Source: a virus. Taken from it: a stretch of 37,947 nucleotides of DNA. Shown in pieces: positions 2,581 through 3,517 of the stretch. The stretch is taken from IMG/VR virus record IMGVR_UViG_3300009505_000032, positions 1 through 37,947 of that record. One strand, 5' to 3'. The translations under genes were made by a program, and so were the position numbers. The stretch's first letter is position 1. The number at the start of each line of letters is the position of its first letter. The notes below the pieces were generated by a model, which was not told the origin of the DNA, made no database searches, and worked only from the letters and a program-made list of their open reading frames with translations.

Positions 2581-2757
2581 ATGTTATCTATGGACGAAAT
2601 ACGGGAGGCGCTAAACATGCACGTCCTGACCAGCGTCGCCGCGCAAACAGGTGTAAACCGCAACACGCTTTCGCTGATTAAGAACGGCCATGACGTTAAC
2701 CTGACGATGAAAACCATGCACGCGCTTTCTGACTATCTGGCCCCGCGTCATGAATAA
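2581..2757 (+). CDS. Small helix-turn-helix DNA-binding protein
   Basis: A 58-residue protein whose central segment VAAQTGVNRNTLSLIKNG (residues 19-36) has the spacing of a Cro/XRE-type helix-turn-helix: a short helix, a turn with glycine, then a recognition helix. Its stop overlaps the methyltransferase start by eight bases, so the two are co-transcribed. The first ATG (2581) has a modest AAAGGGAAA upstream; the ATG at 2590 is an alternative. The position at a divergent promoter suggests a role as autoregulator or early/late switch (inference). It is too short to carry a dimerisation or sensor domain. Confidence 0.6.
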   Translation: MLSMDEIREALNMHVLTSVAAQTGVNRNTLSLIKNGHDVNLTMKTMHALSDYLAPRHE

Positions 2758-3517
2758 GCTAAAGGTGCTGGACCTATTCAGCGGCATTGGCGGGTTTAGC
2801 CTTGGCCTTGATCGTGCTGGCGGATTTGAGACCGTTGCATTTTGTGAAATTGAACCATTCCCACGCCGCATATTGGCGAAACACTGGCCGGAGGTGCCAT
2901 GCTATGAAGACGTTACCAAACTCACAGGAGACATTCTGGCAAGAGACGGAATTGCCGTTGATGTCATCACGGGCGGCTTCCCATGCCAAGACATTAGCGT
3001 GGCTGGACGACAAGCCGGAATTAGCGAAGGAACGCGCAGCGGATTGTGGTCCGAGATCGTCAGACTTATTGGCGAGTTATCACCCAGCTACGTCATCGTG
3101 GAGAACGTCGCAAACCTGCTTAGTGGCCCTAGCGAACAACGAGGGGGATGGTTTGGCCGAATACTCGCAGACCTGGCCGAGTGCGGGTATGATGCGGAGT
3201 GGGAAAACATACCAGCAGCAGCCGTGGGCGCTCCCCATCGCCGCGAGCGTGTCTGGATTGTTGCCTACCCCAACAAAGAGCGACGCGAAGGGATCGCCAC
3301 GCAATCGGTTTTTCAAATCGCCAGCAAGTCACGGCAATCTGTGCGAAAATTTAAGGGACGGTTCAGAAGACCCCATTTACCCGCATCCAGATTTTGTTGG
3401 GCAGATGATGGGGTTCCCATGCGAGTGGCTAGAACTGAAGCCCTTGGAAACGCAGTCGTGCCACAAATCCCAGAACTGATAGGGCGGGCAATTATGGAAG
3501 CGGAGGGTATGGAATGA
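2750..3517 (+). CDS. DNA cytosine-5 methyltransferase
   Basis: A compact 255-residue C5 methyltransferase transferring methyl from S-adenosylmethionine to cytosine. Motif I is DLFSGIGGFSLGL (8-20), motif IV GGFPCQDIS (75-83, nucleophile C79), motif VI ENV (118-120), motif VIII GAPHRRERVW (160-169) and motif X ALGNAVVPQI (231-240). The target-recognition region between motifs VIII and X is only about 60 residues, so the recognition site cannot be guessed. It probably protects phage DNA from host restriction. It overlaps the HTH gene upstream and the next gene by ATGA. Unusually, most of its length is also read in another frame as a second gene (2904-3479). Confidence 0.93.
   Translation: MNKLKVLDLFSGIGGFSLGLDRAGGFETVAFCEIEPFPRRILAKHWPEVPCYEDVTKLTGDILARDGIAVDVITGGFPCQDISVAGRQAGISEGTRSGLWSEIVRLIGELSPSYVIVENVANLLSGPSEQRGGWFGRILADLAECGYDAEWENIPAAAVGAPHRRERVWIVAYPNKERREGIATQSVFQIASKSRQSVRKFKGRFRRPHLPASRFCWADDGVPMRVARTEALGNAVVPQIPELIGRAIMEAEGME
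2904..3479 (+). CDS. Nested gene in the +1 frame of the cytosine methyltransferase
   Basis: A 191-residue protein lies wholly inside the methyltransferase gene. Its ATG at 2904 has a near-ideal ribosome binding site GGAGG (2890-2894) nine bases upstream; the frame is open further back to a TTG at 2787. The residue pattern is not random: SSWRTSQTCL (64-73), TWPSAGMMRSG (90-100), GLLPTPTKSDAKG (118-130) and HPDFVGQMMGFP (161-172) with W175. From memory, this order of blocks recurs in phage proteins linked to C5 methyltransferases (TWPRSGM, LPTPTxxD, NPxFVEWLMGFPxGW). The blocks arise from the same bases as methyltransferase motif VIII and the GVPxRV segment. No function is known to me; a partner or modulator of the methyltransferase is a guess. 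Confidence 0.6.
   Translation: MKTLPNSQETFWQETELPLMSSRAASHAKTLAWLDDKPELAKERAADCGPRSSDLLASYHPATSSWRTSQTCLVALANNEGDGLAEYSQTWPSAGMMRSGKTYQQQPWALPIAASVSGLLPTPTKSDAKGSPRNRFFKSPASHGNLCENLRDGSEDPIYPHPDFVGQMMGFPCEWLELKPLETQSCHKSQN

Follow-up and report, generated by a model that had tools for sequence, protein, structure and literature searches.

The two overlapping reading frames described here very probably specify a single phage C5-cytosine DNA methyltransferase made of two subunits, one per frame, in the layout of M.EcoHK31I. This layout is known from one bacterial enzyme and is here common in phages and usually unannotated. The pair lies in a viral record 37,947 bases long (the window), and we refer to the 255-aa product of the C5 methyltransferase gene as alpha and to the 191-aa product of its +1 frame as beta (Table 1). 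Target recognition sits in the hidden beta frame, which is the new element; the kind of layout as such is known but hardly explored, widespread and under-annotated.

Table 1. Positions in the window of the two overlapping genes and of their parts.
Feature	Start	End	Strand	Remarks
Alpha, C5 cytosine methyltransferase subunit	2750	3517	+	255 aa; motifs I-VIII and X; without in-frame motif IX
Alpha catalytic core, motifs I-VIII	2750	3283	+	residues 1-178; pLDDT mostly >90 (AlphaFold)
GGAGG, putative ribosome-binding site of beta	2890	2894	+	9 nt upstream of ATG 2904
Beta, subunit with target-recognition region and motif IX	2904	3479	+	+1 frame of alpha; open frame, relatives, codon-level constraint
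Beta recognition unit PTPTKSDAKGSPRNRFFKSPASHGNLCENLRDGSEDPIYP	3264	3383	+	read in beta frame
Alpha linker, residues 181-224, crossing the beta recognition region	3290	3421	+	unconserved; pLDDT 41-59; stop-free
Motif IX, beta frame: HPDFVGQMMGFPCEW	3384	3428	+	beta relatives and profile alignment to M.HhaI
Motif X of alpha (ARTEALGNAVVPQIPELIGRAI...)	3425	3505	+	alignment A2; helices 226-233 and 239-252 at pLDDT 85-95

Alpha shows the hallmarks of the C5-cytosine DNA methyltransferases (PF00145), namely motifs I, IV (PC), VI (ENV), VIII and X. It matches PF00145 at 4.6e-44, over residues 4-191 only, and scores 128.8 bits against TIGR00675, above the cut-off of 100.65; the PCQ, EN and RxR signatures are invariant in the alpha alignment (A2). 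It does not qualify as a single-chain C5 enzyme, as judged by in-frame inspection and the predicted disorder of residues 181-224: motif IX and a recognition domain are absent from its own chain. Upstream, a short gene (MLSMDEIREALNMHVLTSVAAQTGVNRNTLSLIKNG...; window positions 2581-2757) shares 8 bases with the beginning of alpha and, judged by eye, resembles a helix-turn-helix protein.

The first-pass annotation had pointed to a 191-codon frame in the +1 register inside the methyltransferase gene, and on translation this frame indeed runs through 191 residues and a stop without interruption, wholly within alpha. The GGAGG it had placed nine bases ahead of the ATG was likewise located, and the opening it had put at 231 codons measures 238 codons from stop to stop (2763-3476). 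At the ribosome-binding position of beta, GGAGGTGC is identical in L001 and L003-L005, and the Glu-Val encoded there is written GAGGTG 23 times, versus 33 of 170 at other Glu-Val pairs of alpha. The start codon is not universal in the family: 59 of 172 members have an ATG at the same column as the window, and 128 of 172 have one at most eight codons away. In the NELALFAGAGGG group (L013, L016, L018, L022 and L027), the beta ATG stands a few bases from the alpha start (MSWLFSQAL...), so the overlap may span almost the entire alpha gene there.

The conserved motifs are divided between the two frames. Similarity of alpha to methyltransferase profiles stops past motif VIII, and beyond this point motif X alone is found. 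Beta closes on NPxxxEWLMGFPxGW in the beta alignment; among 120 relatives, the motif IX block keeps its M in 117, G in 115, P in 118 and W in 120, while alpha is variable at the same codons. A profile that joins the alpha core to the C-terminal half of beta aligns with M.HhaI end to end, and the beta block falls on KLHPRECARVMGYPDSY, which is motif IX. The blocks TWPSAGMMRSG, LLPTPTKSDAKG and HPDFVGQMMGFPCEW had been singled out in the first-pass annotation, and they do map onto the methyltransferase bases in the way it described. Its reading of a known-looking protein family as frame-shifted methyltransferase motifs is borne out in that the conserved blocks overlie motifs; it falls short in that the methyltransferase is completed by the C-terminal half of beta, which holds the recognition region and motif IX that alpha lacks. 

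Structure models agree with this division for alpha. Its AlphaFold model (pLDDT 84.6) combines a confident core, a disordered stretch at residues 181-224 and a confident motif X helix, and matches M.HhaI across 176 residues only. Beta modelled alone is of low confidence (pLDDT 60, pTM 0.26), so its fold and its contact with alpha remain predicted. Compared with solved structures by sequence or profile, beta gave chance RecA matches only and then none, and no Pfam family was matched. Such results would suit a separate protein, be it an inhibitor, a regulator or a nuclease, that merely overlaps a complete methyltransferase. We consider this quite improbable, since alpha is incomplete alone, with neither motif IX nor a folded recognition domain, and beta has the motif IX block. 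Moreover, in the phages Shaka, Lilbooboo and Refuge alpha ends past motif VIII, and the beta frame continues with the recognition region, motif IX and motif X in succession.

Within the recognition region, constraint acts on beta. Beta readings are more alike than alpha readings in all 38 comparable pairs (0.62 versus 0.31), which amount to about eight independent groups. The likeness of beta lies above what alpha explains (mean z 6.5), whereas that of alpha, measured against the likeness forced by beta, reaches a mean z of 1.2 and is near zero in the most distant pairs. For example, the recognition unit of the window and that of Bacteroides phage BX788P2 share 53% identity in the beta frame; in the alpha frame they share 28%, against the 26% that constraint on beta alone would give. 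Nevertheless, alpha has no stop across the region in 82 loci, versus 176 expected from beta-synonymous shuffles. Being stop-free yet unconserved here, alpha evidently has to be translated as far as motif X, with its residues in the region immaterial, and the disorder that AlphaFold assigns to residues 181-224 agrees independently with a passive linker.

The same features bear on a programmed +1 frameshift near motif VIII, by which motifs I-VIII, the recognition region and motif IX would be joined in one chain, the beta frame being used in this way only. An in-silico +1 switch at GCCT (3263; a word picked for modelling) does yield an open chimaera in 33 loci, this chimaera aligns with M.HhaI end to end as far as motif IX, and gp55 of Mycobacterium phage Philonius is a genomic fusion of such a kind. 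We still give the frameshift little probability: beta is constrained far upstream of the switch site (alpha codons 94-153) and has its own start and Shine-Dalgarno sequence in the window clade, alpha is kept open through the recognition region, to no benefit for a frameshifted product, and motif X is read in the frame of alpha.

Several lines of evidence establish that the beta frame is a real, conserved protein-coding gene. A conserved protein casts a weak similarity shadow in its other frames, and similarity alone is therefore no proof of a gene. Such a component exists in the N-terminal half of beta, as the +1 frame of a single-chain methyltransferase of Streptococcus phage P0095 matches the beta profile at 3.5e-17. 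In that phage, gp51 (L246:1598-2017) is annotated as a second methyltransferase, but it reads the gene of a single-chain enzyme, whose motif IX is in frame, in the +1 register and is probably a shadow ORF.

Synonymous shuffling of the alpha codons introduced a mean of 5.2 stops into the 189 overlapping codons of the window, and 0 of 500 shuffles stayed stop-free; we set this result aside as evidence because the open frame itself had served to delimit the region. The test was repeated from motif IV to motif VIII in 69 loci chosen via alpha only. Here, the beta frame had four stops versus 127 expected from alpha-synonymous shuffles, and these occurred in three of the 69 loci. The third frame had 258 versus 247 expected, and single-chain controls had 27 versus about 22. 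Free stops in the +1 frame of close relatives, named in the first-pass annotation as an argument against a gene, are thus not observed. When distantly related loci are paired, likeness in the beta frame exceeds that in alpha-preserving shuffles (z 4.6; third frame, z 2.1).

The third positions of the methyltransferase frame, at which the first-pass annotation had suggested looking, are constrained within beta. Identity at four-fold degenerate sites of alpha is 0.33 upstream of the beta start and 0.32-0.35 past the conserved part of beta; within beta it is 0.54 overall and 0.86 at TWPxSGM and MGFPxGW. Per-site differences at the first, second and third codon positions of alpha amount to 0.21, 0.14 and 0.54 upstream of beta and to 0.30, 0.11 and 0.08 after motif VIII, a pattern in which the free position is the third position of beta. 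A frame that merely accompanies a conserved methyltransferase gene without being translated, and whose family resemblance mirrors the conservation of alpha, would fit both the lack of stand-alone members and the matches in single-chain methyltransferases (L206, P0095), but it is exceedingly improbable given that alpha-synonymous shuffles break the frame, that the likeness of distant beta pairs beats them, that four-fold sites are conserved within beta only, and that substitution periodicity tracks beta in the recognition region, the shift in codon position refuting it already.

The overlapping pair is widespread. Searches with beta (tblastn) returned 72 phage records and five plasmids, as well as at least 467 relatives among viral contigs, and genomes hold further relatives; for profile scans of collections, narrower beta alignments were used, the full alignment being too diverse. 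At every one of the approximately 121 loci found via beta, an alpha methyltransferase overlaps beta in the same register (offset +1), and the hosts of paired loci span Bacteroides, Mycobacterium, Salmonella and cyanobacteria. Stand-alone LPTPTxxD...MGFPxGW proteins, which the first-pass annotation imagined to have arisen by overprinting of methyltransferase genes, did not turn up among these loci from the beta-only search, and the family appears independent because gene callers pick one frame. A search with beta could merely rediscover alpha, and loci were therefore also sampled by alpha alone: beta is present in 77 of 77 distinct loci obtained in this manner.

In most phages alpha alone is annotated; in Rctr197k, SOVA965 and Mwe-JY08 beta alone was called, and Paenibacillus phage Bloom already has annotations for both. 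We found no published account of overlapping methyltransferase genes in phages in the open-access literature. E. coli carries phage-type copies only, in 4 of 5426 genomes. One E. coli prophage copy (PCP07014; L229:2977-3762) has both frames broken at one spot and is listed as a pseudogene in RefSeq. At another locus (L238:84-2111), the alpha frame is interrupted at the catalytic Pro-Cys motif by an insertion of approximately 380 residues with intein-like ends by eye (CFPEGTLVLTKRG ... IVVHN). In two viral contigs (L082 and L093), frame slips past motif VIII shift motifs IX and X together into other frames, and these are either sequencing errors or real mutants.

An in-frame motif IX and a strong beta exclude each other. 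In a census of all PF00145 matches in seven genomes or records, an in-frame motif IX was recognised in five distinct methyltransferases, all of which carry +1-frame stops and no strong beta; conversely, wherever beta is strong, an in-frame motif IX is missing. One enzyme with in-frame motif IX (L206) gave a beta match at shadow level (4e-12, N-terminal part of beta). A class-wide search yielded matches in 10 of 274 genomes, and those containing stops had them outside beta or were single-chain shadows (e.g. L237). In gp55 of Philonius (L247:1438-3090), alpha, recognition units, motif IX and motif X follow each other in one frame, with the N-terminal half of beta open in +1; this protein is either a fused relative or a frameshift derivative. 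A plausible origin of the pair would be a single-chain ancestor that suffered a frameshift past motif VIII, after which an upstream start overprinted the N-terminal half of beta. In the window lineage, motif X would then plausibly have been placed in the frame of alpha. The overprinted parts may accordingly be the N-terminal half of beta and the unconserved linker of alpha.

We computed the constraint on both frames, the division of motifs and the constrained frame in each region, and we infer translation, assembly, activity, target site and an anti-restriction role as follows. Alpha would provide the AdoMet site, the catalytic Pro-Cys with its cysteine and motif X, and no target-recognition domain of its own. 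Ribosomes are predicted to begin beta some 50 codons downstream of the alpha start, at the ribosome-binding site within the gene, and to read it in the +1 frame; the C-terminal half of the beta product would provide the recognition unit and motif IX. In the recognition region only the residues of beta would matter, with alpha acting as a flexible linker that avoids stops to reach motif X. Both polypeptides would assemble into one active enzyme, which may methylate phage DNA at a sequence dictated by beta. The phage context suggests that this methylation probably serves to evade host restriction.

Recognition units starting with PTPxxxD recur in beta. Using this simple pattern to set the boundaries of units of about 33 residues, we counted one, two, three and four of them in 39, 44, 20 and 7 loci, respectively, so that 71 of 110 relatives hold two to four. 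Unit number correlates with the length of beta (r 0.86), and a given type of unit is found at differing positions in different phages. Like units of nine types formed 48 pairs, and in every one of these beta showed more likeness than alpha, with changes at the third position of beta. Beta of the window has one unit only, and thus does not count as multispecific, for which more than one recognition unit is required. We judge the chances to be even that in many phage methyltransferases recognition is organised as exchangeable cassettes of about 33 residues (one to four per protein) in a subunit overlapping the catalytic gene, and that multi-cassette enzymes are multispecific. Each newly acquired or exchanged cassette would then have to be free of stops in both frames at once, since alpha would be read through it as a passive linker to motif X.

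Multiple recognition domains in one enzyme have a precedent in the multispecific C5 methyltransferases of the Bacillus phages SPR, phi3T and H2, described as carrying tandem, exchangeable recognition domains (PMC8936443, citing Wilke, 1988). The one to four exchangeable units of the beta family resemble these; however, the Bacillus phage enzymes are single chains, and the units reported here belong to a second polypeptide, encoded in an overlapping frame. Among PHROG families, P0001 matched phrog_1008 (8.7e-17) and phrog_26627 (2.7e-4). The former represents the beta frame of Shaka-type phages, and its members run through motifs IX and X, unlike beta of the window; the N-terminal part of the P0001 match includes a shadow component.

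The beta subunit of M.EcoHK31I has 176 amino acids and is encoded within alpha in a different frame. Similarly, the gene of the small subunit lies inside that of the large subunit, in another frame, in the window and in all relatives. As described in PMC3404938 (citing Lee, Kam and Shaw, 1995), M.EcoHK31I (YGGCCR, E. coli) requires two polypeptides, of which the large one contains motifs I-VIII and X and the smaller one motif IX only. Alpha of the window with motifs I-VIII and X, and beta with motif IX, correspond to this description. In contrast to M.EcoHK31I, the window gene belongs to a phage, has no adjoining restriction enzyme and encodes subunits of 255 and 191 aa. A further difference concerns recognition: the predicted recognition domain (TRD) of M.EcoHK31I has been assigned to the larger subunit in that account (PMC3404938), whereas codon constraint puts the recognition region of the window in beta. 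Either M.EcoHK31I truly differs, or its predicted assignment would change.

M.AquI (CYCGRG), another C5 methyltransferase of alpha and beta chains, has motifs IX and X both in beta (PMC3404938). Like the window pair it consists of two chains, with the break falling past motif VIII and no later than the end of the recognition domain; however, motif X of the window lies in alpha, and the pair is not of the M.AquI type. The mycobacteriophages Shaka and Refuge and Streptomyces phage Lilbooboo are M.AquI-like. A second frame hidden in a phage methylase gene is also known from ShiLan, whose methylase holds an out-of-frame HNH endonuclease (PMC11855218), but this is a mobile HNH insertion rather than an enzyme subunit.

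Overlapping pairs in which constraint can be mapped codon by codon are rare, and the present one recurs in hundreds of phages and in some plasmids. It displays a division of labour: along motifs IV-VIII two frames are strongly constrained, and in the recognition region one frame is constrained and the other is passive and stop-free. The finding also corrects annotation, as many 'orphan' cytosine methyltransferases of phages are, as annotated, half an enzyme, and expression of the annotated gene alone is therefore expected to fail. A further prediction is that the frame left unannotated determines target specificity.
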